Source of the DNA: Curvivirga aplysinae
Lineage (GTDB): Bacteria > Pseudomonadota > Alphaproteobacteria > UBA8366 > Aestuariispiraceae
DNA length: 39,092 nt
NCBI RefSeq assembly: GCF_009711445.1
Contig: NZ_SMMC01000197.1
Span: forward strand, 1 to 39,092
Direction: 5' to 3'
This document shows positions 16,993-36,642 of the stretch, in pieces (positions within the stretch are counted from its first letter, which is position 1; each line of letters begins with the position of its first letter). Position numbers and translations under genes: made by a program. The notes beneath the pieces are model-generated. The model made no database searches. It was not told where the DNA came from and saw only the letters and a program-made list of their open reading frames with translations.

Positions 16993-17814
16993 TCAGGCCG
17001 CCTTATCTTCCCAAATCACGGGGAATGTGGATGCCGGCAAAGCATCACCAGATTTTAGTTTGCCTTCTAATTCTGGATAAGGTGGGGATGTCTCCCCCTG
17101 ACGATCCATATAATAAGCCCCAGCACCAAGCCAGCGAAACGCAATCGCACGGCGGCGCCCTTTTAACATAGCAGCAGTTGTGCCATGTAAAGTTCTGAAA
17201 TCAAACAAAACCGCATCACCTGGTTCACACGCCCATTCACGGATTTCATATTGATCCCTGTTTCCATCTATATCTGGGATATGCTCTAGTTCTGATGCAT
17301 CTTGAACATAGGCAGCGCCATCCAAGAATTTACGAGGATAAAATAATTTGCCCCAACTATGCGACCCCGCCACGAACTGCACCGTCGCTTCTAATGGCAC
17401 AGGGTCTAGTGCAATCCATACACTAACGGTTTGCGGACCATCAACACAGTAATAAGGCATATCATGATGCCATGGAGTCGCTTTCGCAGTCCCTGCTTCT
17501 TTAATCACTGCATGTTCATGAAAAAGCTGTGCTGTTTTAGACTTCATTGCTTTTGCGGCAATTTCCGCACAATCAGAATTTTTGATAAAATCTTGATACG
17601 GCTGGATACGTTCCCAGTTACAATAATCATCAAAGAATCGGCCACCCTCACCCTCACGGATGCTATCCGTTGCAAATCTCCCAGGTGCATCAAGATTTTG
17701 AGCCACGCCTTCACGTAAAACGTCTACCCAATTCTTGAACGCGCCTTTTAGGCCCAGAACACCTTCTTTTTGAAAGGTTTCGATTTGTTCTTGTGATAAT
17801 TTAAAGTCGCTCAT
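16993..17814 (-). CDS. PhyH (phytanoyl-CoA dioxygenase) family protein
   Basis: A 273-residue Fe(II)/2-oxoglutarate-dependent oxygenase of the PhyH superfamily. The iron ligands can be placed at His116 and Asp118 (PWHHDMPYY) and His210 (FRTLHGT). The 2-oxoglutarate-binding arginine is in GRRRAIAFRW (221-222). The middle block VSVWIALDPVPLEATVQFVAGSH is typical. The substrate is unknown; family members hydroxylate fatty acyl-CoA, ectoine, antibiotics and many small molecules. The ribosome binding site GGGAAG precedes ATG 17814. The downstream MFS gene forms an operon with it. Confidence 0.86.
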   Translation of the reverse strand: MSDFKLSQEQIETFQKEGVLGLKGAFKNWVDVLREGVAQNLDAPGRFATDSIREGEGGRFFDDYCNWERIQPYQDFIKNSDCAEIAAKAMKSKTAQLFHEHAVIKEAGTAKATPWHHDMPYYCVDGPQTVSVWIALDPVPLEATVQFVAGSHSWGKLFYPRKFLDGAAYVQDASELEHIPDIDGNRDQYEIREWACEPGDAVLFDFRTLHGTTAAMLKGRRRAIAFRWLGAGAYYMDRQGETSPPYPELEGKLKSGDALPASTFPVIWEDKAA

Positions 17815-21244: not shown

Positions 21245-22411
21245 CTAAACACCTAACTCTCTTGCCTTTTTTCCTGTGAAGACAAGTACAACGCCAGCCG
21301 TTAGGGAGATCCCCATCATGATCCAGAAAACATGCCCTGCAACCGCAGTATCATACAGCCAGCTCGAAACCGTCATAAACAGCCCGATAAGAATGCCCAT
21401 GGCCAAACCATCATAAAAGGTTTGCGCTGAAGCCGTTAATTCATCTGGTACATGACGAGAAATATAGCTTGTGATTGATAGATGGGTTGCCGCAAAAGTG
21501 AAGGCATGCAGCACTTGCACAATTATTAAAACCACAGTGTCAGTTGTCGCCCCTAACGTAAACCAACGAATAGTGCCACCAATAACCGCTAGCCACAACA
21601 AACCACGCAAACCAACTTTCTTTAATAGAATGGCACCAAAAGCAAAGAGAATCACTTCTGCGGTCACCCCTTCCGCCCAAAGAAAACCAATCATATCACT
21701 TGATAAGCCCGCATTAGCCCAATGCTGGGTCGCAATTGCATAAAGCGCACCATGGCTTGATTGCAAAAGGGCCGCAGCCATCACAAAACCCATCAAGCCC
21801 GGGATTTTAACCACATCAAATAAAGCTATACGACGTCCCGCTTTTTGACGAGGGCGTAAATCCGGCAAAGGCAAAACTGCAATAACGACAATCCCACCAA
21901 AGATCATCAGTAAGGTCGGGATATGATCAATGGATTTACCTGCTAAATAAACGCCAGCAATACTGGATACGACGATAAAGGCAATCGATCCAAATAATCT
22001 AGCAGGCCCATAATTTAAGAAGCCACGTCTCGCGGCAGTAATAGCCAATCCATCTATCATGGGAATCATGCTGGTTTGCAAAGGTCCAACAACGAACCAC
22101 ACAATCAACATTGGCCAAAAACTATCTGTCTGGGCAAAAACCCAAAACCCAATGAGGTTTGTAATTGCTAGAAATAAAATCCAATATTTTCTATGACCCG
22201 TTGCATCCGCCAGTGTCCCGACGGCGATCCCAAACACAACTTTACTGATGAAAGCAGAACTTAAAATCAGACCAACGTCACCATCGCTAATGCCATGACT
22301 TTTCATCCATAAGGGTAAGAAAGGTAAGACAATGCCAAAGCAAGCAAAATGGGCAATAAAAAACCCTGAAAAAACAAATTGTCCACGGGCTTTTGAAACT
22401 TCAACGGTCAT
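21245..22411 (-). CDS. MFS transporter, HcaT/LacY-like subgroup
   Basis: An inner-membrane permease of about 388 residues with twelve predicted helices. Helix 1 and the loop PLWMKSHGISDGDVGLILS, the VGTLADATGHRKYW loop after helix 2, and the GPARLFGSIAFIV block resemble the MFS_1_like group that includes the 3-phenylpropionate transporter HcaT. The substrate is unknown. I use ATG 22411; the frame also offers a TTG at 22426, and neither has a convincing ribosome binding site. The PfpI gene lies 95 bases downstream on the same strand, with the palindrome between, so they may be separately controlled. Confidence 0.85.
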   Translation of the reverse strand: MTVEVSKARGQFVFSGFFIAHFACFGIVLPFLPLWMKSHGISDGDVGLILSSAFISKVVFGIAVGTLADATGHRKYWILFLAITNLIGFWVFAQTDSFWPMLIVWFVVGPLQTSMIPMIDGLAITAARRGFLNYGPARLFGSIAFIVVSSIAGVYLAGKSIDHIPTLLMIFGGIVVIAVLPLPDLRPRQKAGRRIALFDVVKIPGLMGFVMAAALLQSSHGALYAIATQHWANAGLSSDMIGFLWAEGVTAEVILFAFGAILLKKVGLRGLLWLAVIGGTIRWFTLGATTDTVVLIIVQVLHAFTFAATHLSITSYISRHVPDELTASAQTFYDGLAMGILIGLFMTVSSWLYDTAVAGHVFWIMMGISLTAGVVLVFTGKKARELGV

Positions 22412-22519
22412 GAAAATTGACGCCAATCTATCTACATTATAATTAAAACCACCCCACTCGCACCTTCTATACGCTAGAACAGATTCTTTTGAAAAGGAAA
22501 AACTTTATACGGAATTTGT

Positions 22520-22652: not shown

Positions 22653-23651
22653 ATGAAAACCTTCTTCCGTGCTGTAAGTGTCGCAGCTTTGGTATTCGGT
22701 ATTCAAGCAGCTAACGCCGATGAATTTAATCCAGCTGTTGTCTTTGACATGGGCGGTAAATTTGATAAATCCTTCAATGAAGGTGTATATAACGGCGTAG
22801 AGCGCTTCAAATCTGAAACAGGCGAAAAATATCGTGAGTTTGAAGTAACAAACGAAACTCAACGTGAGCAAGCAATCCGTAAAATGGCGCAACGAGGATC
22901 AAACCCAGTTCTAGGTATTGGTTTCGCGCAAGCAGATGCGATTTCCAAAGTTGCAGCTGAATATCCAGATACAGATTTCGCCATCATCGACATGGTTGTT
23001 GATCAACCAAATGTTCAATCCGTTATCTTCAAAGAACATGAAGGTTCTTTCCTTGTTGGGCTTCTTGCAGCGATGAAATCAGAAACAGGTAAAGTTGGTT
23101 TCATTGGTGGGATGGATATCCCATTGATTCGTAAATTCGCATGTGGTTTTGAACAAGGTGCAAAGTTTGCGAACCCAGACGTTGAAGTCATTCAAAACAT
23201 GACAGGCACAACACCTGCTGCTTGGAACGATCCGGGCAAAGGTTCGGAATTAACACGCGCGCAATTTGACCAAGGTGTTGATGTGGTTTTCGCAGCAGCT
23301 GGTGGTACAGGTGTTGGTGTACTTCAAACTGCCGCTGATGAAGGTAAATATTCCATCGGTGTTGATTCCAATCAAAACCATCTACACCCAGGTTCTGTTT
23401 TGACATCTATGTTAAAACGCGTTGATGTAGCAGCTTACCAAGTGTTTAAATCCGCCAATGAAGGTACTTTTGAGCCCGGTTTTAATGAATATGGCTTGGC
23501 TGAAGGTGGTGTAGGTTGGTCTTTAGATGAACATAACAAAGACTTGATCACTGCAGAAATGAAAGAAGCAGCTGATTTGGCAGAAGCAGACATCATTGCC
23601 GGTGCGATCCGTGTTCATAACTATATGGATGACAGCACTTGTACCTACTAA
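22653..23651 (+). CDS. BMP-type nucleoside-binding ABC transporter protein
   Basis: A 332-residue periplasmic substrate-binding protein of the BMP/PnrA/Med family, which captures purine and pyrimidine nucleosides. A signal peptide with a cut after ANA (residue 22) is followed by the family blocks FDMGGKFDKSFNEGVYNGVERF, EGSFLVGLLAAMKSETGKVGFIGGMDIPLIRKFACGFEQG, VVFAAAGGTGVGVLQTA and SIGVDSNQ. A GGGG-containing ribosome binding site precedes ATG 22653. It is the first gene of the nucleoside locus. A terminator hairpin directly after it should keep its mRNA level above that of the membrane components, as is common for binding proteins. Confidence 0.93.
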   Translation: MKTFFRAVSVAALVFGIQAANADEFNPAVVFDMGGKFDKSFNEGVYNGVERFKSETGEKYREFEVTNETQREQAIRKMAQRGSNPVLGIGFAQADAISKVAAEYPDTDFAIIDMVVDQPNVQSVIFKEHEGSFLVGLLAAMKSETGKVGFIGGMDIPLIRKFACGFEQGAKFANPDVEVIQNMTGTTPAAWNDPGKGSELTRAQFDQGVDVVFAAAGGTGVGVLQTAADEGKYSIGVDSNQNHLHPGSVLTSMLKRVDVAAYQVFKSANEGTFEPGFNEYGLAEGGVGWSLDEHNKDLITAEMKEAADLAEADIIAGAIRVHNYMDDSTCTY

Positions 23652-23688
23652 GTCTTTTATTCTAGCCACTTAGGTGGTTAGTGTTTGT

Positions 23689-23716
23689 AACGGGGGCCTT
23701 CGCCCCCGTTATTTTA
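23689..23716 (+). terminator. Terminator/attenuator after the binding-protein gene
   Basis: AACGGGGGC (23689-23697) and GCCCCCGTT (23702-23710) form a 9-base-pair GC-rich stem with a CTTC loop, followed by ATTTTATT. It lies 37 bases after the binding-protein stop and before the ABC ATPase gene, so it probably gives partial termination. Confidence 0.88.
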
Positions 23717-23796
23717 TTAAAGTTTCGAGTAAAATTATTGGGAAAAGGTAATTTACTACCTCCCTATTTTTTTCTAACCTAACTTCAATTGAACAT

Positions 23797-23820
23797 TTGA
23801 CAATCCTGACCAGTTGGTCA
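23797..23820. promoter_or_regulatory. TTGACA element and palindrome upstream of nucleoside ABC ATPase
   Basis: A consensus -35 hexamer TTGACA (23797-23802) is followed by the inverted repeat TGACCA GT TGGTCA (23807-23820). No good -10 hexamer lies at the ideal distance. The layout suggests an operator controlling an internal promoter for the transport and salvage genes. The regulator type cannot be told from sequence. Confidence 0.45.
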
Positions 23821-23855
23821 AGATTTAATGTTTACGTCAAATTCTATATCAATAT

Positions 23856-23866
23856 TGATCGGATCA
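23856..23866. promoter_or_regulatory. Short palindrome next to the ABC ATPase start
   Basis: TGATC G GATCA, centred 14 bases before ATG 23875. A second symmetrical element in the same leader. It may be a binding site or chance in AT-rich DNA. Confidence 0.25.
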
Positions 23867-23874
23867 TATTACTT

Positions 23875-25446
23875 ATGACAAATCAATCTTCCCCCTCTTC
23901 AGCGGGTACAGCTATCGAATTAAGCGGCATAAGCAAGGCCTTTGGCCCTGTGCAAGCAAATAGCGATGTTAACCTGTCTGTTCCCAAAGGTACCATTCAC
24001 GGGATTATCGGTGAAAATGGTGCGGGTAAATCTACATTGATGAGTATCCTTTATGGTTTTTATGAAGCTGATAGTGGTGAAGTCTTTGTGAATGAAAAGA
24101 AAGTCAGCATCCGTAATTCAAATGATGCAATTGCAACTGGCATTGGCATGGTTCATCAGCATTTCATGTTGGTTGATACCTTTTCCGTCCTTGAAAATGT
24201 GATGTTAGGTGCAGAATCTGGGGAAGTCTTAAAAGACAGTATTAAGAAAGCTGAAACGGAACTCACACGTCTTGAAAAAGAATATGGCCTTCATGTGCCA
24301 ATACATAGCTTGATTGAAGACCTTCCGGTTGGTCAGCAACAACGTGTGGAGATTCTGAAAGCACTTTATCGTGGTGCGGAAATCCTGATTTTGGATGAAC
24401 CAACAGGTGTTTTAACGCCTCAGGAAACAGATCAGTTATTTAAAATTCTTGAAGCTCTTCGTGATCAAGGCGTCACCGTTATTTTAATCACGCATAAACT
24501 TCGCGAAATCATGGCTATCACCGATAATGTTTCCGTCATGCGTCACGGCACAATGGTTGCTCATCGTAAGACGTCTGAAACAGATCGTGAAGAATTGGCT
24601 GAACTTATGGTGGGACGTAAAGTTCGTACAAAAGCCGATAAACAAAAAGCGCAACCAAAAGAAACAAAATTAAAGGTCGAAAACCTATCTGTCTTTGATC
24701 AGTTTAATGTTGCACGTGTTGATAACGTTTCTCTTGATCTTCGCGCAGGTGAAATTGTGGGTATTGCCGGCGTGTCTGGCAACGGACAAAGCGAACTATT
24801 AGAAGCTTTATCCGGTATAGAGGCCGTTTCAAAAGGATCCTTTACGCTCGGCGATATCACCATTGATGCGGATAATCCAAAAAATGCAAAGGAGATGCGC
24901 GACCTTGGGCTTGCACATGTACCGGAAGATCGTTTGCATTTAGGTTTGGTTCCTTCTTTTTCTGCTCATGAGTCTTCTATCCTTGGTTATCATCGCGATA
25001 AAGAATTTAACGGCCCAATCCTTTCCAAGGTTGGTAACATCGTAAATTATTGTGCACGCATTATGAACGATTTCGACGTGCGTCCACAGGACCCAAGTTT
25101 GAAATCTGCCAATTTCTCTGGTGGTAATCAGCAGAAACTCATCTTGGCACGCGAAATGGATCGCGACCCTCCTATCCTGCTAGTTGGACAACCAACCCGT
25201 GGAGTGGATATTGGTGCGATTGAATTCATTCATCAGCAAATCATTGCTATGCGCGATGCAGGATGTGCTGTTTTGCTCGTATCTGTTGAACTTGAAGAGA
25301 TCATGTCCTTGGCAGATCGTATCTTAGTGATGTTTGAAGGTCGCGTTGTTGGTGAAATCGAAGCTGACAAAGCAGATGAGAAAATTTTAGGCCTAATGAT
25401 GGCAAATGCCCATAAGACATCTCCAGATGGGGAGATCACAGCATGA
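23875..25446 (+). CDS. Nucleoside ABC transporter, ATP-binding protein
   Basis: A 523-residue protein with two fused ABC ATPase domains, the form used by sugar and nucleoside importers (RbsA, YufO/NupO type). Domain 1 has Walker [10 protein letters not shown], a Q-loop in MVHQHFMLV and Walker [13 protein letters not shown]. Domain 2 has the usual altered P-loop GVSGNGQSE, the signature [15 protein letters not shown] and PTRGVDIGA. It powers uptake with the two permeases encoded next and the binding protein before it. I start at ATG 23875; the in-frame TTG at 23797 lies in the regulatory palindrome region and would add a non-homologous extension. The stop overlaps the permease start (ATGA). 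Confidence 0.93.
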
Positions 25447-26606
25447 GTGATACAACCATGACAGAAGAAAAACCAAAAAAGAAAATCGGCATGGCGAAAC
25501 CTCCTCTTCCAGCTTGGATGGATTATGGTGTCTTGCCTTTAGTGAATATTTTATTCGCCTTATTCATCTCAGGCATCATTATCTGGTTGATCGGTATTAA
25601 TCCGTTTGAAGCCTTGGAATGGTTAATTATTGGCTCTCTTGGTGGGTCTTATGAATTAGGCTATACCCTCTACTATACTACAAACTTTATCTTTACTGGC
25701 CTTGCTGTTGCCATCGCCTTCCATGCAAATTTGTTCAATATTGGTGGTGAAGGACAAGCATATGTGGGCGGTTTAGGCGTTGGCCTATTAATCCTTGCCG
25801 TTGATCAATATTTGCCATTTTGGATGATTTTGCCATTAGCAATCATGGCTAGTGCTGCTTTTGGGGCGGCTTGGGCATCCGTGCCTGCTTATTTACAAGC
25901 CTATCGTGGAAGTCATATTGTGATTACCACAATTATGTTTAACTTTATTGCCTCTGCATTGATGACATATCTTTTGGTAGATGTAATGCGTGGCAAAGGT
26001 CAAATGTCACCAGAATCACGTGAATTCGCAGAAGCAGGTCATCTACCATTCATGCATGAATTCATGGCGAATTTTGGTTTTGATCTGGCCTCTACCCCTT
26101 TAAACGTAACTTTCTTCTGGGCCTTAATCTGTTGTGTGTTCCTATGGTTATTTATATGGCGTACACGCTGGGGCTATGAAATACGTAGTGTTGGTGCAAA
26201 TGAACCAGCTGCTGTTTATGCTGGTGTGAATCCGCGGCGTATTGTCATGATGGCCATGTTAATTTCTGGCGGCTTGGCTGGTTTTGTTGGTATGAACGAA
26301 ATCATGGGCGTTCATCATAAAATTTTGTTGAACTTTGTCTCTGGTTACGGCTTCACTGGTATTGCCGTATCTCATATGGGGCGTAACCATCCGGTCGGTA
26401 TTATCCTCGCCAGCTTGTTATTTGGTGTTCTTTATCAGGGTGGTGCAGAACTTGCTTTTGAATATTCCGAATTTACACGTGAAATGGTAGTAACCATCCA
26501 AGGCCTTATCATCCTCTTCTGTGGTGCTTTAGCTTATATGACCAAACCATTTGTTGCGAATATTTATTACGCGATCACGCTGCCAAGAAACGGTAAGGAG
26601 GCATAA
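25443..26606 (+). CDS. Nucleoside ABC transporter permease 1
   Basis: A 387-residue integral membrane protein of the BPD_transp_2 family (YufP/NupP-like). Hydrophobic helices cover most of the chain. Typical blocks are FHANLFNIGGEGQAYVGG, GSHIVITTIMFNFIASALMTYLLV and IRSVGANEPAAVYAGVNPRR, the last being the ATPase-contact EAA-like loop. It pairs with the next permease to form the channel. The start overlaps the ATPase stop by four bases, and the next gene follows after two bases. Confidence 0.92.
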   Translation: MSDTTMTEEKPKKKIGMAKPPLPAWMDYGVLPLVNILFALFISGIIIWLIGINPFEALEWLIIGSLGGSYELGYTLYYTTNFIFTGLAVAIAFHANLFNIGGEGQAYVGGLGVGLLILAVDQYLPFWMILPLAIMASAAFGAAWASVPAYLQAYRGSHIVITTIMFNFIASALMTYLLVDVMRGKGQMSPESREFAEAGHLPFMHEFMANFGFDLASTPLNVTFFWALICCVFLWLFIWRTRWGYEIRSVGANEPAAVYAGVNPRRIVMMAMLISGGLAGFVGMNEIMGVHHKILLNFVSGYGFTGIAVSHMGRNHPVGIILASLLFGVLYQGGAELAFEYSEFTREMVVTIQGLIILFCGALAYMTKPFVANIYYAITLPRNGKEA

Positions 26607-26608
26607 TT

Positions 26609-27586
26609 ATGGAACAGTCTATCGTTATTCTTCTTTCAGTTTTAGATGGCACATTACGTGTCTCTACCCCACTTGTCCTATGTGCCATGGCGGGACTATT
26701 TTCTGAACGATCAGGTACAGTAGATATTTCCCTTGAAGGAAAACTTCTATTTTCCGCTTTTGCAGCGGCTGCTGTAACATATGTGACCGGCAGTCCTTGG
26801 GTTGGCATGGTTGCCGCCATCGCGATTTCTTTTAGTCTGTCCATGTTACACGGTTTTGCTTGCGTGACACATAACGGTAACCAAGTGGTGAGTGGTGTGG
26901 CGATTAATATCCTGGCGTCTGGTTTGACAGTGGTTCTTGGCATTGCCTTCTTCCGTCAAGGTGGCCAAACACCGACTTTACCGAAAGATGCACGCTTCAC
27001 CCCGATTGAGCTTCCTTTTGCAGAAGCTTTAGATTCTATTCCATTCATTGGGCAGTTATATGCCCAAGTGATCAGCGGCCATAATATACTGGTTTATCTG
27101 GCATTCCTACTTGTTCCAATTACAAGCTGGATTGTATTTAAAACACGTTTTGGTTTGCGTCTTCGTGCTGTTGGTGAAAACCCGAAAGCCGTTGATACCG
27201 CTGGTATTGGTGTGCGTGCAATGCGTTATAAAGCTTTGGCTGTTAATGGTGTTTTATGTGGTATCGCAGGTGCTTACCTATCTACGGCCCAGAATGCTGC
27301 ATTCGTGCGGGAGATGTCCGCAGGTCAAGGTTATATCGCTTTAGCTGCACTCATCTTCGGTAAATGGCGGCCTAAAACTGCCATGCTTGCTTGTTTAATG
27401 TTTGGTCTGTTGGATGCGATTGCAATCCGTCTACAAGGAGTCATGATTCCTGGTACGGAAACTGAAGTTCCTGTGACTCTGATCCAAGCATTACCTTATA
27501 TCCTAACCGTTATTCTTTTGGCTGGCTTTATCGGCAAAGCCATTCCACCAAAAGCAATCGGTATCCCTTATGTAAAGGAACGCTAA
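26609..27586 (+). CDS. Nucleoside ABC transporter permease 2
   Basis: A 325-residue membrane protein of the same family (YufQ/NupQ-like). Features include LCAMAGLFSERSGTVDISLEGKLL near the N-terminus, the THNGNQVVSGVAINILASGLT helix, the cytoplasmic loop RLRAVGENPKAVDTAGIGV, and FVREMSAGQGYIALAALIFGKW. A strong ribosome binding site (TAAGGAGG, 26594-26601) overlaps the end of permease 1. The gene ends one base before cdd. Confidence 0.92.
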   Translation: MEQSIVILLSVLDGTLRVSTPLVLCAMAGLFSERSGTVDISLEGKLLFSAFAAAAVTYVTGSPWVGMVAAIAISFSLSMLHGFACVTHNGNQVVSGVAINILASGLTVVLGIAFFRQGGQTPTLPKDARFTPIELPFAEALDSIPFIGQLYAQVISGHNILVYLAFLLVPITSWIVFKTRFGLRLRAVGENPKAVDTAGIGVRAMRYKALAVNGVLCGIAGAYLSTAQNAAFVREMSAGQGYIALAALIFGKWRPKTAMLACLMFGLLDAIAIRLQGVMIPGTETEVPVTLIQALPYILTVILLAGFIGKAIPPKAIGIPYVKER

Positions 27587-27587
27587 G

Positions 27588-27983
27588 ATGTCTAAAGACG
27601 ATCTTCAAAAAGCTGCAGCAGAAGCAATGGAAAAAGCTTATGCCCCCTATTCCAATTTTCAGGTGGGGTCCGCAATTTTAGCTGAGAATGGTAAAATTTA
27701 TTCTGGTTGTAACGTAGAAAACGCAGCTTACCCACAAGGAAATTGTGCAGAAGCCAGTGCCATTGCTGCAATGGTGATGGATGGGCAAACCGCAATTCGT
27801 GAAATTGCAGTAATCGGCAAAGGCGATGCTTTGGTCACGCCATGTGGGGGATGCCGTCAACGTATTCGCGAATTTGGAAAACCTGACACTCCAGTGCATG
27901 TTTATGGAGAAGAAGGTTTACGTAAAAGCTATACCTTAGACGAATTATTGCCGGACTCTTTTGGTCCTGAAAATTTAAAATAA
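27588..27983 (+). CDS. cdd: Cytidine deaminase
   Basis: Converts cytidine and deoxycytidine to uridine and deoxyuridine for salvage. The 131-residue homotetramer type is indicated by the zinc ligands Cys53 (in CAEASA, with catalytic Glu55), Cys86 and Cys89 (PCGGCRQ), and by the N-terminal YAPYSNFQVGSA motif. AAAGGA inside the end of permease 2 serves as the ribosome binding site, so the genes are coupled. Confidence 0.97.
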   Translation: MSKDDLQKAAAEAMEKAYAPYSNFQVGSAILAENGKIYSGCNVENAAYPQGNCAEASAIAAMVMDGQTAIREIAVIGKGDALVTPCGGCRQRIREFGKPDTPVHVYGEEGLRKSYTLDELLPDSFGPENLK

Positions 27984-28007
27984 TATTTAAAATAAAGAGT
28001 TTATTGC

Positions 28008-28808
28008 ATGAGCAAAGCTTCAAAACATATTCGAGAATTACTACCTGACTTTTCACCAGAAGTTGCGATCATCCTTGGCTCCGGCCTTGGGGGTTTTGCG
28101 GAACTAGTGGAAAATGCGACCAAAATCTCCTACCGAGACCTAAAGGGTTTCCCCCAAGCAGGTGTCGCAGGTCATGCCGGCCAGCTTATTTGTGGAACCA
28201 TTGGAAAAACCAAGATCATTGTTGCACAGGGTCGCGCACATTTTTATGAGCATGGCGATGCCACTGTTATGGATCCCGTCATAAAATGTTTTAAGCAACT
28301 AGGTTGTCATACTTTAATTGTTACAAATGCGGCGGGTGGATTGAATACTGACTATAATCCAGGCAGCGTAATGATCATTAACGATCATATCAATTTCTCG
28401 GCTACATCACCACTGATTGGGAAAGAAGGCAATGAGAGATTTGTGGGAATGGCTGACGCTTATGACCCGACAATTCGTGAACGCCTAATGACAATTGCAG
28501 AATACGAAAACTTGGATGCCTATGAAGGTGTGTATATGTGGTTCACTGGTCCGCATTTTGAAACTCCGGCAGAAATACGCATGGCAAAAATGCTTGGAGC
28601 TGAAGCAGTCGGTATGTCGACTGTTCCAGAAGTCATTCTCGCACGTTTTTATGGTATGAAAGTGGCTGGTCTATCAAACATTACCAATCTAGGTGCAGGT
28701 CTTTCAGATGAAAGCCTAAGTCATGAACACACAATGGCAATGGCTGGAAAAGGAGCAAAGAAAATTGCTACAATTCTGAAAGCTTACCTAACTGAGGGAG
28801 CATTATAA
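28008..28808 (+). CDS. punA: Purine-nucleoside phosphorylase (trimeric type)
   Basis: Phosphorolyses guanosine, inosine and their deoxy forms to the base plus (deoxy)ribose 1-phosphate. Family features are the phosphate loop AIILGSGLGGF (20-30), VAGHAGQL, the RAHFYEHGD block, TNAAGGLN, the WFTGPHFETPAEIRM block with the base-binding Glu, and VGMSTVPEVILARF. The 266-residue length fits the trimeric PNP class, not the hexameric DeoD class. The deoC gene starts directly after the stop codon. Confidence 0.95.
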   Translation: MSKASKHIRELLPDFSPEVAIILGSGLGGFAELVENATKISYRDLKGFPQAGVAGHAGQLICGTIGKTKIIVAQGRAHFYEHGDATVMDPVIKCFKQLGCHTLIVTNAAGGLNTDYNPGSVMIINDHINFSATSPLIGKEGNERFVGMADAYDPTIRERLMTIAEYENLDAYEGVYMWFTGPHFETPAEIRMAKMLGAEAVGMSTVPEVILARFYGMKVAGLSNITNLGAGLSDESLSHEHTMAMAGKGAKKIATILKAYLTEGAL

Positions 28809-29567
28809 ATGAACCTGACAGAAGCTGCAAAAAAATCAATTGCTTGTCTTGATTTAACCTCCCTCAATGATGATGATACAGAAGACGACGTCAAAGCACT
28901 TTGCGCGAAAGCACAAACAATGCATGGTAACACAGCCGCTGTGTGCGTCTGGCCACGTTTTGCAGCCTTGGCGGTGGGTCTATTAAAAGATACCGATATT
29001 AAAGTCGCGGCTGTTGCTAACTTCCCAGATGGTGGGTCCGATGTGGATCAAGCAGTCAGTACAACCAAACAAATTCTTGAATCTGGTGCACATGAAGTAG
29101 ACGTTGTATTCCCATACCGTGCCTATTTACGTGGTGACAGTGACATTGCGACACAATTGGTTTCAGCAACCAAAGCAGCTTGTGGTGATCAAGTGAAGCT
29201 AAAAGTCATTATTGAGTCGGGTGAACTAAAAACAGAAGAGGCTATTCGCGGTGCTTCTGAAATTTCGCTAAATGCAGGCGCAGACTTTATCAAAACTTCT
29301 ACTGGTAAGTCCCCGGTATCAGCAACACCTGAAGCAGCAAAAACTATGCTTGAAGCTATCAAAGCGCATGGTTCTGGCGCCTTCAAAGCATCCGGTGGCA
29401 TTCGTGATACGGACGCAGCCGCTCAATATATTCAAATCGCTGCTGATGTGATGGGCGAAGATTGGATCAATGCGGATCATTTCCGCTTTGGCGCCAGTGG
29501 CGTTCTAACCAACTTACTTGCTGTTCTAGACGGCACATCAGAAACAGAAAATAACGCAGCCTATTAA
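28809..29567 (+). CDS. deoC: Deoxyribose-phosphate aldolase
   Basis: Splits 2-deoxyribose 5-phosphate into acetaldehyde and glyceraldehyde 3-phosphate, the end of deoxynucleoside catabolism. The Schiff-base lysine is Lys162 in DFIKTSTGK, with Asp98 in EVDVVFPYRA and Lys193 in FKASGGIR completing the active site. The 252-residue length is like E. coli DeoC. A GAGGGAG ribosome binding site lies within the end of punA; ATG follows the punA stop with no gap. Confidence 0.96.
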   Translation: MNLTEAAKKSIACLDLTSLNDDDTEDDVKALCAKAQTMHGNTAAVCVWPRFAALAVGLLKDTDIKVAAVANFPDGGSDVDQAVSTTKQILESGAHEVDVVFPYRAYLRGDSDIATQLVSATKAACGDQVKLKVIIESGELKTEEAIRGASEISLNAGADFIKTSTGKSPVSATPEAAKTMLEAIKAHGSGAFKASGGIRDTDAAAQYIQIAADVMGEDWINADHFRFGASGVLTNLLAVLDGTSETENNAAY

Positions 29568-29627
29568 TAATTTCCCATTCTTGAGATAAGGCGCGATTGA
29601 AATTTAGATAAATAGGAGAAGTATCAA

Positions 29628-30950
29628 ATGCTTCCACAGGAAATTATTCGCAAAAAACGCGACGGAAACAAACTATCTGCAGAAGAAATCCAGTTCGTTG
29701 TTGATGGTATTACAAGAAACACTTTATCTGAAGCACAGGTAGGTGCGTTTGCCATGGCTGTTTTCTTTCAAGGCATGGATATGGATGAACGCGTTGCCCT
29801 CACCCGTGGTATGATGAATTCTGGTGATGTTTTAAGCTGGGATAATTTAGGCCTTGATGGCCCTGTTGTTGATAAACATTCTTCTGGTGGTGTTGGCGAT
29901 AAAATTAGCTTGATGCTTGCACCTATTGTCGCAGCTTGTGGCGCCTATGTTCCAATGATTGCTGGTCGTGGGCTTGGTCATACAGGTGGAACCGTTGATA
30001 AGCTAGAAGCTATTCCGGGATACAACACCGCGCCATCTGACGAACAATTCCGTGCTATCGTTAAGAAATTAGGTTTTGCTATTATTGGTCAAACAGGTGA
30101 ATTGGCGCCTGCGGATAAACGCCTTTATGGTATCCGCGATGTGACAGCGACAGTTGAATCTGTACCATTGATCACAGCCTCTATTCTCTCCAAAAAATTG
30201 GCTGCAGGCCTTGATGCTTTGGTCATGGATATCAAATGCGGTAACGGTGCCTTCTGTGATACCTTTGAAATGGCTAAGGAGTTATCTGAAAGTATTGTTG
30301 CTGTTGCCAATGGCGCTGATACGGCAACCAATGCGTTGATCACTGATATGAACCAAGTGCTGGGCAATACGGCTGGTAATTCCGTTGAAACCATCGAAGT
30401 CATTGATTATTTGACCATCAAAGAAGCACGTGAACCACGTCAACATGAAATCACTATGGCTCTTGCGGCCGAGATGGTTTTGCTAGGTAAGCTTGCAGAT
30501 ACCATAGAAGAAGCCCGTGAAAAAGCTGAGGATGCATTGGAAAGCGGACGCGCCGCAGAAAAGTTTGCGCAAATGGTTGTTGAACTTGGTGGTCCTGCTG
30601 ATTTGATTGAGAAAAAAGAAAGCCATATGCCATTGGCCGAAGTGACACGTGATGTCTATTTAAATGATGCGGGCGTGATAACCGAACTGAACACACGTGA
30701 AATTGGTCTTTCTGTGGTAACATTGGGGGGTGGTCGTAAATCACCGACCGATGATATTGATCATGCTGTTGGTTTAAGCTGTATTCGTGGTCTTGGTGAT
30801 GATGTAGATAGCAATACGCCATTCTGTCGCATTCATGCACGTAATGAAGACCAAGCTGATGCAGCAGAAGTAGCAATTAAGTCTGCTGTAACAGTTGGTG
30901 AAACATCACCTGTTATTAATAATATCGTGATGGAACGTATCACAAGCTAG
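29628..30950 (+). CDS. deoA: Thymidine phosphorylase
   Basis: Converts thymidine or deoxyuridine plus phosphate to the base and 2-deoxyribose 1-phosphate. The phosphate-binding motif [10 protein letters not shown] (83-92) and [21 protein letters not shown] are exact family signatures, and [11 protein letters not shown] is also present. At 440 residues it has the full thymidine phosphorylase length. ATAGGAGAAG is a good ribosome binding site before ATG 29628. It is separated from deoC by 60 bases with no terminator. Confidence 0.96.
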
Positions 30951-31001
30951 GGCCATATTATTTGGTGTAAGCTTCAGGATTTAAGAAAAGAAAGAAAAAC
31001 C

Positions 31002-32219
31002 GTGGCACGTACATTTATATTGATCATGGATTCATTCGGGATTGGTTCCGCCGAAGATGCGGACAGTTTTGGCGATACGGGTGCGGATACATTAGGCCAT
31101 ATCGCCGAAGCCTGTGAACAAGGCAAAGCGGATGAACAAGGTCGTTCCGGCGCACTTGATATACCTAATCTCTTATCACTTGGTTTAGGCAAAGCATGGT
31201 CCGAGGGAACAGGAAAATCATTAAATTCCCTCACCACCGAAACCACGATCAAAGGAGCCTATGGCTTTGCGCAAGAAGTTTCTAAAGGCAAAGATACACC
31301 ATCTGGGCATTGGGAGATTGCGGGCCTGCCAGTTGATTTTGATTGGGGCTTCTTCCCAACAACTATCCCAAGTTTCCCAAAATCTCTGACTGATCGTCTG
31401 ATTGAGCGGGCAGGTATAAAAGGCATTCTTGGTGATAAACATGCATCTGGTACGGTAATTATCGAAGAACTAGGTGAAGAACATGTCAAAACCGGCATGC
31501 CTATCTGCTATACATCCGCTGATAGTGTATTTCAAATTGCGGCGCATGAAGAACATTTTGGCCTAGATAAGCTTTATGAATTATGTGAAATCGCCAAAGA
31601 ATTATGTGACGAATATAATGTAGGCCGTGTAATTGCACGCCCCTTTATCGGGGAAGATGCAAAAAGCTTTAAGCGTACAGGCAATCGTCGCGATTACACG
31701 ACGGAACCACATGAAGACACCTTGTTAGATAAGCTCGTTAAAGCAAATAAGACTGTCGTATCTGTCGGCAAAATTTCCGATATCTTTGCCCATCGTGGTA
31801 TTTCAGAAAAAGTAAAAGCCACAGGTAATATGGCTCTTTTCGATGAAACTTTGCGCCTCGCTGACGAAAAAGGTGAAGGCAGTTTGATTTTCACTAATTT
31901 CGTGGATTTTGATGCAGAATATGGTCATCGTCGTAATATAGCTGGTTATGCCAAAGCACTGGAAGATTTCGACAAACGCCTTCCAGAACTTTTCGAAAAA
32001 CTTGAAGATGATGATCTGGTATTGATTTCTGCAGATCACGGATGTGACCCAACTTGGGAAGGCACCGATCACACACGTGAATATGTACCTGTGATTTTCT
32101 ATAAAAAAGGCATAGAAGAAAATAATCTGGGGCGTCGCGCGACCTTTGCCGATATGGGTCAAACCATTGCCAAACATTTTGGTATCGATCCCCTCACCCA
32201 CGGGACTGCCTGTTTCTAG
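31002..32219 (+). CDS. deoB: Phosphopentomutase
   Basis: Interconverts (deoxy)ribose 1-phosphate and 5-phosphate, linking the phosphorylases to DeoC. A member of the alkaline phosphatase superfamily. Metal-binding Asp10 is in MDSFGIG, the phospho-acceptor threonine is Thr99 in KDTPSGHWE, and later metal ligands lie in [11 protein letters not shown] and TDHTREYVP. The 405-residue length matches DeoB. The start is GTG 31002 ([15 protein letters not shown]), with only a purine-rich stretch as ribosome binding site. Confidence 0.96.
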
Positions 32220-32230
32220 GATAAAATAAT

Positions 32231-33118
32231 ATGACCAAAGAAGCTTTACGTTTTCAATCGACTGAAGATGGACATTTAACTGACGAAATGAAGGTAGCCT
32301 ATGAACGGGATGGCTATATCATTTTAGAAAACTTTGTTGATCCAGCTATCTGTGATTCCGTTCGAGATCATGCTGATAAATTGGTTGAAGAATTTGATCC
32401 ATCTGGTGTCTCTACTATCTTTTCTACCAATGAACGCTCCCATGCAAAAGATGATTATTTTAAATCATCCGGCGATAAAGTGCGTTTCTTTTTTGAAGCA
32501 GAAGCTTTTGATGAAAATGGTGAGTTAAAACAGGAAAAGTCTAAATCAATCAACAAGATGGGCCATGCCATGCATGACCTTGATCCAGTTTTCAAAGAAT
32601 TTGCCTATACTGATAAACTGAAAAAACTTGCAGGAAGTTTGGATTGGAAACAACCACAACTTTTACAAAGTATGTATATCTTCAAGCAACCAAAAATTGG
32701 CGGTGAAGTTAACATGCATCAAGATAGCACCTTCCTTTATACAGATCCCGAATCCGTCGTAGGCTTTTGGTTTGCTCTGGAAGATGCCACTCTTGAAAAT
32801 GGATGCCTCTGGGGCATCCCAAATCGTCATAAAGAACCATTGAAAGATAAGTTTGAATATGATGCGGACGGTAATTTGATTTTAAACACAGTCAATCCAT
32901 GTGAATGGAAAATGGAAGATGCTGTTCCTTTAGAAGTAAAAAAGGGAACTGTGATCCTACTTCATGGGCATTTGCCGCATTATTCCGCGCCAAATCGTTC
33001 AACAAAATCCCGTCATGCTTTCACTTTGCATGCCATTGATGCGACTTGCGACTATCCAGATCACAACTGGTTGAAACGGGGTAAAAATCTACCACTAGTC
33101 AACTGGTTGGACGCGTAA
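32231..33118 (+). CDS. PhyH family dioxygenase, PHYHD1-like, in nucleoside operon
   Basis: A 295-residue Fe(II)/2-oxoglutarate oxygenase. Iron ligands can be placed at His163 and Asp165 (NMHQDSTFLYT) and His250 (HGHLPHYS), with the 2-oxoglutarate arginine at Arg261 (SRHAFTLH). The block WFALEDATLENGCLWGIPNRH resembles the PHYHD1 subgroup more than phytanoyl-CoA hydroxylase itself. The enzyme should be active, but its substrate is unknown. It lies 11 bases after deoB and two bases before the deaminase gene, with no sign of its own promoter, so it is expressed with nucleoside catabolism. A nucleoside, a base or a modified form is the natural guess. Confidence 0.88.
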   Translation: MTKEALRFQSTEDGHLTDEMKVAYERDGYIILENFVDPAICDSVRDHADKLVEEFDPSGVSTIFSTNERSHAKDDYFKSSGDKVRFFFEAEAFDENGELKQEKSKSINKMGHAMHDLDPVFKEFAYTDKLKKLAGSLDWKQPQLLQSMYIFKQPKIGGEVNMHQDSTFLYTDPESVVGFWFALEDATLENGCLWGIPNRHKEPLKDKFEYDADGNLILNTVNPCEWKMEDAVPLEVKKGTVILLHGHLPHYSAPNRSTKSRHAFTLHAIDATCDYPDHNWLKRGKNLPLVNWLDA

Positions 33119-33120
33119 AT

Positions 33121-34101
33121 ATGCAAACCCAAAATATTCCAAAAGTCGAACTACACGTTCATATTGAAGGAACTATTACGCCGTCTCTTGCAAAAAAACT
33201 TGCGACTAGAAATGGTGTAAAACTTGATCCATCGGTTTTACAATATGAGGATCATTACACCTTCACAGATTTTTTAGATTTTCTAAATCAATATGACATG
33301 GTTGCGGATTGCATTCGCACACCCCAAGATTACGAAGATCTCGTCTATGATTATCTAGAACGTTGCGCTGCAGAAAATGTGATCTATGTAGAATTTTTTG
33401 GATCAAAAGATCATGGGGAAGCTTGCGGTATCAGTTATCCTGATATGGTAGCTGGTATGGCAAAAGGTATTGAACGCGCGGAAGCTGACTTTGGCATTAT
33501 CTGTCGTTGTATTATGACTTGTGTCCGCCATTATGGACATGAACGTGCCCTACCTGCAGCCCAAGCGATGATCGATCATCCACATCCGATCGTTGTTGGT
33601 TTGGGCATGGCCGGTGATGAAAATGCACATCACCCAAAGGATTTCGCGGCGGCTTTTAATCTTGTTCATAAAGCTGGATATCCAACCACAGCCCATGCGG
33701 GCGAAGCTGCAGGTCCACAAAGTGTGAAAGACTGTCTAAAATATCTACCTATCAAGCGTATCGGGCATGGTGTTCGTAGTATTGAAGACCCTGCTCTTGT
33801 TAAAGAAATAGTTCAAAAAGGTATTGCTCTGGAACTTTGTCCCGGAAGTAATTTATCCCTTGGTTTCTATGATCAACCGGAAGATCATCCGATCCTCAAA
33901 TTAAAAGAGGCAGGATGTCGGATGAGTTTAAACTCTGACGATCCACCCTATTTTATGACAACGATAGGAATGGAATATGAAAATGGCATGCAACTTTGGG
34001 GTTTGACAGAAGACGAACTTCGCGGCATTACCAAAATGGCAATTGAAGATGCCTTCTGTGATGATGAAACCAAAGCCAAGCTTCTGGCAAAATTAGGTTA
34101 A
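33121..34101 (+). CDS. add: Adenosine/adenine deaminase family protein
   Basis: A 326-residue amidohydrolase of the adenosine deaminase family. Zinc ligands His12 and His14 (ELHVHIEG), His192 with catalytic Glu195 (HAGE), His216 (IGHGVRS) and Asp273 (NSDDP) are all present. It should deaminate adenosine or deoxyadenosine to inosine forms, feeding the phosphorylase PunA. The NSDDPPYF motif is close to the NSDDPAYF of the adenine-deaminase (Aah1-like) branch, so adenine or another 6-aminopurine is possible and the symbol is tentative. It starts two bases after the dioxygenase stop. Confidence 0.85.
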   Translation: MQTQNIPKVELHVHIEGTITPSLAKKLATRNGVKLDPSVLQYEDHYTFTDFLDFLNQYDMVADCIRTPQDYEDLVYDYLERCAAENVIYVEFFGSKDHGEACGISYPDMVAGMAKGIERAEADFGIICRCIMTCVRHYGHERALPAAQAMIDHPHPIVVGLGMAGDENAHHPKDFAAAFNLVHKAGYPTTAHAGEAAGPQSVKDCLKYLPIKRIGHGVRSIEDPALVKEIVQKGIALELCPGSNLSLGFYDQPEDHPILKLKEAGCRMSLNSDDPPYFMTTIGMEYENGMQLWGLTEDELRGITKMAIEDAFCDDETKAKLLAKLG

Positions 34102-34107
34102 TAAAAT

Positions 34108-34818
34108 ATGATTGAAGTTGTTGCTTTTGATGCGGATGATACCCTTTGGCATACCGAAGATATTTTTGTTAGCACTCAAAACAAACTGGAAGAAATTCTT
34201 ACAAACTATTGTGAGACCGCCCATTTGCATGAACGCATGGCAGCAACCGAAAAAGAAAATGTCAAACTTTTCGGCTATGGGATTAAAGGTTTTACCTTGT
34301 CCATGGTTGAAACAGCTATTGAGCTATCAGAAGGTAAGATTTCAGCTGAACATATCCATGAAATTATCCAGCTTGGTAAAGCGATGCTGGAACATCCGCT
34401 TCGTATCATGCCTAATGTGGAAGATGTGTTAAAAGAACTTCATGGGAAATATAAGCTGGCGATCGTAACCAAAGGCGATCTACTTGATCAAAATAACAAG
34501 ATCGATCAATCCGGTCTTGCCCCTTATTTTGATTTTCTGGAAGTGGTGAGTGAGAAAGATACCACGACCTATGAAAATTTATTCACGAAATGGGGCGATT
34601 ATCCTGCTGAACGTGTCATGATGATTGGAAATTCATTACCATCTGATGTGTTACCCGTATTGGATATTGGTGGCTATGGTGTTCATATTCCCTACGTAAC
34701 AACAGCTGCATTTGAACGTACCGACCGCATTGCCTCCGGTCATCGTTTTGCACATAAAGATAATATTAAAGAGATTCCAGCATATCTTGAACAAATTGCC
34801 CTTAAATATCTGATCTGA
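34108..34818 (+). CDS. HAD family hydrolase
   Basis: A 236-residue haloacid-dehalogenase-type phosphatase. Nucleophile motif FDADDTLWH has Asp8 and Asp10; motif 2 is AIVTKGD, motif 3 a lysine in VVSEKD, and motif 4 GNSLPSD. A helical cap lies between motifs 1 and 2 (about 18-90). The substrate is not defined. As the last gene of the nucleoside locus, six bases after the deaminase gene, a nucleotidase or sugar-phosphate phosphatase role is plausible but inferred only from context. Confidence 0.87.
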   Translation: MIEVVAFDADDTLWHTEDIFVSTQNKLEEILTNYCETAHLHERMAATEKENVKLFGYGIKGFTLSMVETAIELSEGKISAEHIHEIIQLGKAMLEHPLRIMPNVEDVLKELHGKYKLAIVTKGDLLDQNNKIDQSGLAPYFDFLEVVSEKDTTTYENLFTKWGDYPAERVMMIGNSLPSDVLPVLDIGGYGVHIPYVTTAAFERTDRIASGHRFAHKDNIKEIPAYLEQIALKYLI

Positions 34819-34942
34819 CAATTTTATCAGGCAATTTTAAACAATCTGGAATAACTGCTCTTCCGTTCCTTTTGCATATGGAAACTTATCATCAATGGGT
34901 TTATAAATTTCCCAAATGATAATCCAAACGGGGTATTCCAAT

Positions 34943-36642
34943 ATGTATTCTTCTTCCAATGCACGCCAATCCAACGAACGTTTGGGCGGGCATATTCTTG
35001 CTGATCAATTAGCTATTCAAGGTGTAGATACAGTTTTCTGTGTTCCGGGCGAAAGTTACCTGGCACTTCTTGATGGTTTGGTAAATCATGAAGACAATAT
35101 TCGCGTAATCAACACGCGTCACGAAGGCGGTGCCTCTAACATGGCGGAAGCTTATGGCAAAGTCACAGGACGCCCCGGCATTGTATGGTGACACGTGGCC
35201 CAGGTGCAACCAATGCTTCATGCGGCCTTCATACTGCTTATCAAGATTCCACTCCCATGATCCTTTTCATTGGTCAAGTTGGTCGTGATATGAAGGACCG
35301 TGAAGCTTTTCAGGAAATTGATTATAGTCACATGTTTGGTCAAATGGCGAAATGGGTTGCCCAAATTGATAGCGCTGATCGAATTCCAGAATATATCAAC
35401 CGCGCTTTTCATGTAGCCATGTCAGGTCGCCCGGGCCCTGTTGTTCTTGCATTACCGGAAGATATGTTAACCGATTATACTGCAGCAGCCGATCTAAAGG
35501 CCCCTGCCCGCGTTGCCCAATCTGTGCCTGCTATTGAAGATTTGAATGAATTGGAAAGTCTTTTACAAAAGGCAAAAAAACCATTCATGCTTGTTGGTGG
35601 CCCGACCTGGACGCAAGACGCAGTAGACAATATCGTGGCATTTGCAGAAAAACATAACATTCCAACGGGGGCCTCTTTACGTTCCCAAGATTGCTTCGAC
35701 AATACACATCGCTGCTATGTGGGGGATGTGGCAATTGCTGTAAATCCGAAATTATCCAAACGTGTAAAAGAAAGCGATTTGCTTATTGTAGTGGGGCCAC
35801 GTTTAGGTGAAATGACCACGCAAGGATATGACCTGGTCACCATCCCGGAAACCGCACAAACATTAGTTCATGTGCAAACAGGTGCGGAAGAATTAGGACG
35901 TGTTTATCGCCCTGATCTTGGCTTTAACTGTGATATGCCCTCTTTTGCAAAAGCAATACAGTCAATTTCTGCAACAGGTGATGAATCCCGTGCTGCATGG
36001 TGTGCTTCTGCTCATCAAGATTATCTTGACCGCATTCAACCGACTGAGGTTGCGGGTGACCTCAACATGTCAAAAGTGGTACGTCATCTCAGCGAAACTT
36101 TACCTGCAGATGCTATTGTCACAGCAGGTGCCGGTAACTATGCGGTTTGGGTGCATCGTTTCTTCCAACATAAAAAATTCCGCACACAAGTTGCCCCAAC
36201 AAATGGCGCCATGGGATATTCCGTTCCCGGTGCATTAGGCGCAAAAGCGGTTGATCCAACCAAAACTGTTGTCAGCTTTAGTGGTGATGGCTGCTTTATG
36301 ATGCTGGGCCAAGAACTGGCAACAGCCATCCAATTTGATCTACCCGTCATTTTCATCGTGGTAAATAATGGTTTCCTGGGCACTATTCGTATGCATCAGG
36401 AACGCACCTATCCAGAACGTGTGATGGCAACTGATCTGCACAACCCGAATTTTGTGCAATTGGGTCAAGCGTATGGTTGTCATAGTGAATTGGTTACGAA
36501 AACCGAAGATTTTGCGGCTGCCTTTGAACGTGCAGAACAATCAGGAAAAGCGGCACTTCTTGAACTTCGCGTTGATCCAGAAGCCCTTACCCCCGTTCAA
36601 AGTTTGAGCGAAGTGCGTGAGCAAGGCAAAGCATCTGTCTAA
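34943..36642 (+). pseudogene. Acetolactate synthase-like TPP enzyme, frameshifted
   Basis: Two overlapping reading frames together encode one thiamine-diphosphate enzyme. The N-terminal part (ATG 34943, or 34916) has the catalytic-Glu motif VPGESYLALLDGL and ends at TGA 35189-35191. The rest (frame from 35185 to 36642, 485 residues) continues VTRGPGATNAS, has the central domain, and then the TPP/Mg motif GDGCFMMLGQEL...VNNGFLG. Joined, they give about 566 residues, normal for this family. The split is where related proteins read GRPGI..VTRGPG, so one base is missing. The rest of the gene shows no decay, so the frameshift is recent or a sequencing error. A 124-base gap separates it from the HAD gene. 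True substrate unknown; it need not be the biosynthetic IlvB. Confidence 0.87.
35182..35186 (+). other. Frameshift point in the TPP enzyme gene
   Basis: The frame changes at ATT GTA TGG TGA: one extra base after GT would give ATT GTN ATG GTG ACA and restore I-V-M-V-T-R-G-P-G. There is no homopolymer and no X-XXY-YYZ slippery heptamer, so programmed frameshifting is unlikely. Confidence 0.85.

Follow-up and report, generated by a model that had tools for sequence, protein, structure and literature searches.

The window analysed here is a whole stretch of 39,092 nucleotides from Curvivirga aplysinae (contig NZ_SMMC01000197.1). A run of same-strand genes at positions 22653-34818 encodes an importer, enzymes of nucleoside breakdown and a dioxygenase of 295 amino acids with an ATG start. 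The genes, with the evidence for each, are as follows.

22653..23651, plus strand: bmp, BMP/PnrA-like substrate-binding protein of a nucleoside-type ABC importer (Pfam PF02608, 8.4e-68)
23872..25446, plus strand: ABC ATPase (NCBIfam ABC_ATP_B6, 3.1e-125, below its cut-off; order as in relatives)
25443..26606, plus strand: ABC permease 1 (ORF; tblastn synteny with relatives)
26609..27586, plus strand: ABC permease 2 (ORF; tblastn synteny with relatives)
27588..27983, plus strand: cdd, cytidine deaminase (TIGR01354, 1.9e-45, over cut-off)
28008..28808, plus strand: punA, purine-nucleoside phosphorylase (TIGR01698, 4.9e-92, over cut-off)
28809..29567, plus strand: deoC, deoxyribose-phosphate aldolase (TIGR00126, 2.1e-59, over cut-off)
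29628..30950, plus strand: deoA, thymidine phosphorylase (TIGR02643, 4.1e-191, over cut-off)
31002..32219, plus strand: deoB, phosphopentomutase (TIGR01696, 2.4e-158, over cut-off)
32231..33118, plus strand: PHYHD1-type Fe(II)/2-oxoglutarate dioxygenase, proposed 2'-O-methylnucleoside demethylase (family, structure and residues; function after PMC12709175)
33121..34101, plus strand: add-family deaminase, substrate adenosine or adenine (PF00962, 3.6e-83; TIGR01430 over cut-off; below the stricter NF006848)
34108..34818, plus strand: HAD-family hydrolase (TIGR02253, 6.5e-16, and YjjG, 4.1e-13, both below cut-off; synteny)

The ORF of the ABC ATPase opens at 23797 with TTG, but by our reading translation more likely begins with the ATG at 23872. 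The deoB stop codon ends at 32219 and is separated from the dioxygenase gene by 11 bases; the ATG of add, at 33121, follows the dioxygenase gene after a gap of 2 bases. The earlier note, made from the sequence alone, had placed the dioxygenase gene in exactly this position, within an operon for nucleoside uptake and catabolism. The coordinates match exactly, and the families of bmp, cdd, punA, deoC, deoA, deoB and add were recovered by Pfam and NCBIfam. No terminator-like hairpins were found on the operon strand in the two short gaps flanking the dioxygenase gene. A strong hairpin of this kind (23687-23712, plus strand) separates bmp from the ABC ATPase gene, as would be expected if the binding protein were made in excess.

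Upstream of the operon and divergent from it lies an MFS transporter gene (21245-22426, minus strand). Its product matches Nucleoside-H+-symporter weakly (7.1e-10) and may be a further carrier of nucleosides. The window contains a second PhyH gene (16993-17814, minus strand; Pfam 3.2e-24), which only 7 bases separate from the gene of an MFS transporter at 15792-16985 (minus strand). A gene for a thiamine-diphosphate enzyme occupies approximately 34900-36642 (plus strand); its N-terminal part is in another reading frame, and this frameshift is either real or assembly-derived. One nucleoside hydrolase gene is present elsewhere in the genome.

The dioxygenase belongs to the PhyH family (Pfam PF05721; 1.2e-48, 166.7 bits against a cut-off of 22). 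NCBIfam yielded no equivalog for it, the best model being methylphosphonate hydroxylase with 43.5 bits against a cut-off of 500. Its best solved relative by sequence is human PHYHD1 (2opw/3obz, 6.6e-64), with 42% identity over 267 aligned columns. An AlphaFold2 model built from 20 sequences has a mean pLDDT of 90.8. Foldseek ranks the PHYHD1 structures 3obz and 2opw as the top two matches of this model, which superimposes on 3obz with Z 37.5 (rmsd 1.9, 273 residues), as against 24.4 for the next family and 22.7 for human PHYH (2a1x). In a quick tree with the root on six other PhyH proteins (root branch 97 SH-aLRT; L183 and 14 of the 20 control proteins omitted), human PHYHD1 falls inside the bacterial set, as the sole eukaryote on a long, flagged branch whose exact place is unsure. 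Because of the best sequence match, the model match and the tree position, the window dioxygenase is a bacterial PHYHD1-type protein, as the earlier note had proposed. Its identification as phytanoyl-CoA hydroxylase, that is, PHYH proper, was rejected, as 2a1x is matched at 2.6e-13 only.

The iron ligands H163, D165 and H250 and the 2-oxoglutarate arginine R261, which had also been read as intact, are invariant in the 20-sequence alignment. The corresponding human columns H156, D158, H246 and R257, the last being by our reading of the spacing the probable 2-oxoglutarate arginine, are invariant in all 139 proteins compared (80 and 39 relatives and 20 other PhyH proteins). In the region of the extra helix at the pocket mouth of the human protein (Q56-L71), the model has short helices at 69-73 and 75-78; this block has pLDDT 58-73 and is 4 residues shorter.

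The demethylation of free 2'-O-methylnucleosides was described, from a metagenomic screen and animal work, in Nucleic Acids Res. of December 2025 (PMC12709175). In that paper the reaction is established for human PHYHD1, for the metagenomic enzyme FJS and for the other enzymes reported there. In vitro, many 2'-O-methylnucleosides are substrates of human PHYHD1, and free 2'-O-methylnucleosides accumulate in the zebrafish phyhd1 knock-out; formaldehyde release was demonstrated with FJS. The paper gives 2'-O-methyl mono- and triphosphates and 3'-O-methyluridine as non-substrates, and on the RNAs tested there removal of 2'-O-methyl groups was not seen.

Docking in human PHYHD1, as given in the same source, places K102, H105, Q139 and W277 at the ribose and stacks the base on F161, while S154 makes contact with purines. 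The window equivalents are K109, H112, Q146, W280, F168 and N161, respectively. Among the genome-contig relatives (the best 80 of 194), K102/H105/Q139/W277 are kept in 80/80/80/80, and among the 39 class and family relatives in 39/38/39/38. The corresponding numbers for the 20 other PhyH proteins, entered as full ORFs and poorly aligned in these regions, are 0/0/4/0, with gaps in 3/9/0/9. Since the catalytic ligands are invariant in all 139 proteins, what sets the PHYHD1 group apart is its predicted ribose contacts, although these come from docking, itself a prediction. The exceptions are L158 (H105 replaced by A) and L179 (W277 replaced by G); both are without core nucleoside neighbours, and their substrate may have changed. 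At the F161 column, 38 proteins of the best 80 of 194 relatives have F and 42 have Y; tyrosine is reported for this position in bacterial demethylases (PMC12709175). The S154 column is variable throughout.

Two sets of relatives were used for a survey of gene neighbourhoods: the best 80 of 194 confirmed genome-contig relatives, and 39 class and family orthologues, that is, the 41 places found less the own genome and G004, whose contig is as long as that of L009 and overlaps it in coordinates. The sets overlap slightly, as the L146 protein is identical to that of L010 and L167 is near-identical to the L077 group. A locus was called linked if tblastn placed a core gene (cdd, punA, deoC, deoA, deoB, add, nucleoside hydrolase, CNT transporter or putative psuG) within 5 kb. 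By this count 52/80 genome-contig loci are linked, a figure that leans towards close kin since only the best 80 of 194 were taken, and so are 22/39 class and family loci. Linked loci occur in 11 of the 23 families represented, so that the linkage is not unique to this genome; uniqueness would have counted against the reading of the earlier note. No core gene was found within 5 kb at any of 20 other PhyH genes of a control set drawn from the window's own order. A second control comprised 20 genomes, taken from a set of 23 and all with a linked orthologue, with one high-scoring non-orthologue PhyH match each and distances taken from the match start position (4.3 to 15 kb of the stretch); here a core gene was within 5 kb at 1/20. 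In this single case (L204) ORFs of the opposite strand intervene between the PhyH gene and a nucleoside hydrolase gene about 1.7 kb from it, and in L217 a nucleoside hydrolase gene lies just past 5 kb. Fisher tests of 22/39 against the two controls, which ignore kinship, gave 7.5e-6 and 1.4e-4. Placement by chance was therefore rejected.

Within the linked 52 loci, those without a core gene under 300 bases are L020 (deoB at 4.9 kb) and L082 (CNT transporter at 1.2 kb). The linked label changes at least 10 times on the tree, and well-supported branches force 4 of these changes. Since the orthologue is present in only 38/385 genomes of the class draw (E 1e-50) and 6/14 genomes of the family search, own genome included in both, the dioxygenase is an accessory gene. 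Unlinked by this count are 28/80 and 17/39 loci, and 9 of these 28 have a flank of less than 5 kb on at least one side. Some of them are suggestive, namely L173, with bmp, ATPase and permease genes divergent beside the dioxygenase gene; L065 and L073, with a divergent NCS1-type permease gene; and L023, L027, L030, L035 and L043, with purine catabolism. Ten selected genes near the dioxygenase gene in unlinked class loci (DUF4269, TPR, pirin, two class II aldolases, porin, two aldehyde dehydrogenases, a Crp-type regulator and DAP epimerase) have no nucleoside theme, and none was seen among selected neighbours scanned in the loci of Paraglaciecola, Vibrio, Marinicaulis and Acidobacteria. Some of the unlinked relatives may serve in other settings or may be simply unclustered.

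The following arrangements were observed.

deoB-dioxygenase-add: the window, L009 (Aestuariispira insulae, in which the operon is complete), L010, L011, L145, L146, L160, L161
deoB-dioxygenase, then no core gene: L151, L152, L155, L157, L053, L175
dioxygenase before bmp: L148, L159, L166, L172
deoA-dioxygenase-add: L170, L171, L174
dioxygenase-deoA-CNT transporter-nucleoside hydrolase-ribokinase, complete or partial: Woeseiaceae and kin
ABC genes-dioxygenase-add: L076, an Acidimicrobiales MAG
dioxygenase directly followed by the HAD-family hydrolase gene, with no add found there: L180, L181, L182

ARRANGEMENTS differ among loci, which argues against one inherited block. Among the best 80 of 194 relatives, deoA is located on the same strand within 300 bases of the dioxygenase gene at 37/80 loci.

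At 8/80 loci and at L167 the dioxygenase gene abuts or overlaps a RihA-like nucleoside hydrolase gene and is accompanied by convergent putative psuG and psuK genes. These loci (L077, L079-L081, L083, L086-L088 and L167) are alphaproteobacterial and carry Indigoidine_A (psuG-type) and PfkB-kinase genes. The names psuG and psuK are presumptive, being taken from Pfam PF04227 and PfkB, and NCBIfam at E 1e-20 gave no match for either protein. The alphaproteobacterial records with AG- isolate names, several of them titled MAG, are presumably marine single-cell genomes. This arrangement suggests that 2'-O-methylated and pseudouridylated nucleosides are used jointly. In the SAR324-type loci, purine-breakdown genes and the dioxygenase gene converge, and the other flank of the dioxygenase gene holds oxaloacetate-decarboxylase-type genes. 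L030 has a YgeW carbamoyltransferase (over cut-off) and a YgeY-like hydrolase and carbamate kinase (both below), in clusters common to L023 and L043; in L035 a gene of the allantoate-amidohydrolase type accompanies one for a selenium-dependent xanthine dehydrogenase (each over its cut-off), in clusters common to L027. The nucleoside-hydrolase/pseudouridine-type and purine-breakdown settings together suggest a wider module for scavenging of modified RNA.

Several further neighbours were observed. A divergent TRZ/ATZ-type amidohydrolase gene, deaminase-like by NCBIfam at scores below cut-offs, is found within 5 kb at 33/80 loci (e.g. L055:8345-9817, minus strand, in Woeseiaceae), and 17 loci of the Woeseiaceae setting have a TonB-dependent-receptor cluster. 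In the Bacteroidetes MAGs L065 and L073 less than 100 bases separate the PHYHD1-type gene from the divergent NCS1-type cytosine/purine permease gene; their proteins are the nearest tree rows to human PHYHD1, itself on a long branch. In family f60 an aldehyde dehydrogenase gene (L162:6178-7272, L163:2593-4029) precedes the PHYHD1-type gene, and it is conceivable that this dehydrogenase is linked with the formaldehyde product.

From the sequence data, it is highly probable that the window gene encodes a cytoplasmic PHYHD1-type 2'-O-methylnucleoside demethylase feeding the phosphorylases. Homology, the predicted pocket and the gene context all point to 2'-O-methylnucleosides as the most likely substrates. 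The BMP-type ABC transporter would import the nucleosides of degraded RNA, presumably including the ribose-methylated ones. The dioxygenase, using Fe(II), O2 and 2-oxoglutarate, would then hydroxylate the 2'-O-methyl carbon; collapse of the resulting hemiacetal would give formaldehyde and a plain nucleoside, and succinate and CO2 would be formed as by-products. This nucleoside could enter deamination by cdd and add, phosphorolysis by punA and deoA, and the deoB and deoC steps. A possible sink for the formaldehyde is the product of a formaldehyde-dehydrogenase-type gene in the genome (TIGR02818, 641 bits, over cut-off). The E. coli strain of PMC12709175 is reported there to be unable to metabolise 2'-O-methylcytidine, and this is the gap that such a demethylase would fill. 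On the other hand, the pocket of the assayed bacterial demethylases seems to differ from the animal type, the base-contacting S154 of the human protein corresponds to the variable N161 position in the window protein, and deoA, deoB and deoC alone are no indication of 2'-O-methyl substrates.

A rival reading is an enzyme that hydroxylates an unmethylated nucleoside or deoxynucleoside, or its sugar, in the manner of a fungal nucleoside 2'-hydroxylase, and so opens another catabolic route. The deoxynucleoside genes adjoin the dioxygenase gene; PDN2'H of Neurospora crassa, as cited in PMC12709175, is a precedent for a 2-oxoglutarate enzyme acting on free nucleosides; and the substrates in Table 1 of that paper include no unmethylated nucleoside. 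Nevertheless we consider this quite unlikely, given the activity of human PHYHD1 and the zebrafish phenotype described above; moreover, many linked relatives are beside nucleoside hydrolase and CNT transporter genes, and deoC is within 5 kb in only 1/80 of the best 80 of 194 relatives. Removal of a methyl group from the base, that is, from an N-methylated nucleoside or base prior to deamination or phosphorolysis, might be suggested by the add-family deaminase gene that follows in the window, L009-L011, L076, L145, L146, L160, L161, L170, L171, L174 and L176. However, at the 37 loci with deoA directly after the dioxygenase gene an add-like match occurs in 3 only, weak and upstream. Furthermore, in Table 1 of PMC12709175, N6,2'-O-dimethyladenosine yields N6-methyladenosine and N4,2'-O-dimethylcytidine yields N4-methylcytidine, the N6- and N4-methyl groups being left untouched by both FJS and human PHYHD1. 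Base N-demethylation, for which we see very little chance, was rejected on these grounds. The proposal of the earlier note that a modified nucleoside is hydroxylated or demethylated is thus supported for O-methyl groups and disfavoured for N-methyl groups.

The least probable reading, to which we attach almost no weight, is an acyl-CoA or lipid hydroxylase placed in the operon by chance. It is prompted by the name of the PF05721 family, phytanoyl-CoA dioxygenase, but the sequence and the fold are far nearer to PHYHD1 than to PHYH, and the linkage recurs across families. In PMC12709175, phytanoyl-CoA was hydroxylated by FJS to a negligible extent only, and human PHYH is reported there to be without demethylase activity. 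The lipid role was therefore rejected; action on acyl-CoA or lipids only, which would have counted against the reading of the earlier note, is not borne out. A different question is the benefit of the same chemistry. The dioxygenase may protect the cell, clearing 2'-O-methylnucleosides before they inhibit salvage enzymes or become polymerase-blocking triphosphates, and harm of this kind is discussed in PMC12709175. This possibility does not exclude the feeding role and its chances overlap with those of the latter, yet the import and catabolic neighbours fit food use better, and we regard protection as improbable, if less so than the other alternatives.

Demethylation of imported 2'-O-methylnucleosides for use as food is thus our preferred reading. 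The enzyme kind and its reaction are already known, and it is the operon context that is recurrent and apparently undescribed. Searches of PMC listings and abstracts turned up no publication that describes the operon linkage in bacteria; the searched text of PMC12709175 does not mention the gene neighbourhood of these bacterial dioxygenases, using "operon" only for pyr genes and "gene cluster" only for RK9NH. The recurrent operons offer independent genomic support for the PHYHD1 substrate class, would correct the misleading name "phytanoyl-CoA dioxygenase" and point to how environmental bacteria may consume ribose-methylated RNA, seemingly unusable by ordinary salvage. More tentatively, and with a chance that we put a little short of even, bacteria, many of them marine, may possess a module that is devoted to feeding on modified RNA and has been put together repeatedly. 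It would consist of an importer, a PHYHD1-type demethylase and phosphorylases or a nucleoside hydrolase, joined in some alphaproteobacteria by putative genes for pseudouridine kinase and pseudouridine-phosphate glycosidase, or by genes of purine-ring breakdown in SAR324-type genomes, and would turn ribose-methylated and pseudouridylated RNA into carbon and nitrogen. If so, the PHYHD1 of animals would represent a branch of that bacterial nucleoside-catabolism enzyme which has survived.

A deo-type operon with a BMP-type ABC importer is a classic kind of bacterial nucleoside catabolic operon. The window operon shares with it cdd, punA, deoC, deoA, deoB, add and the importer genes and differs in the added dioxygenase; to our knowledge, no standard salvage step requires such an enzyme. 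With human PHYHD1 isoform A (2OPW, 3OBZ) the window protein has in common the fold, the HxD...H triad, the 2-oxoglutarate arginine, the four docked ribose contacts and the stacking phenylalanine, whereas it has N161 in place of S154 and a shorter PHYHD1-helix stretch, and its gene is bacterial and lies in an operon. FJS, the metagenomic bacterial 2'-O-methylnucleoside demethylase, is likewise a bacterial PhyH-family enzyme and its reaction is expected to be the same; by its description in PMC12709175, it differs in that its nearest proteins are from Labrys and Acidisoma and that C-terminal helices stand at the pocket mouth. The hydrolases LbNH, AgNH and RK9NH (PMC6278475, PMC12709175) also serve the breakdown of 2'-O-methylnucleosides; a gene cluster of hydrolase and aldolase for 2'-O-methyluridine is described in PMC6278475, and the RK9NH gene is beside a deoC-like aldolase gene. 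These proteins belong to another family and hydrolyse the glycosidic bond, whereas oxidative demethylation is proposed for the window protein.
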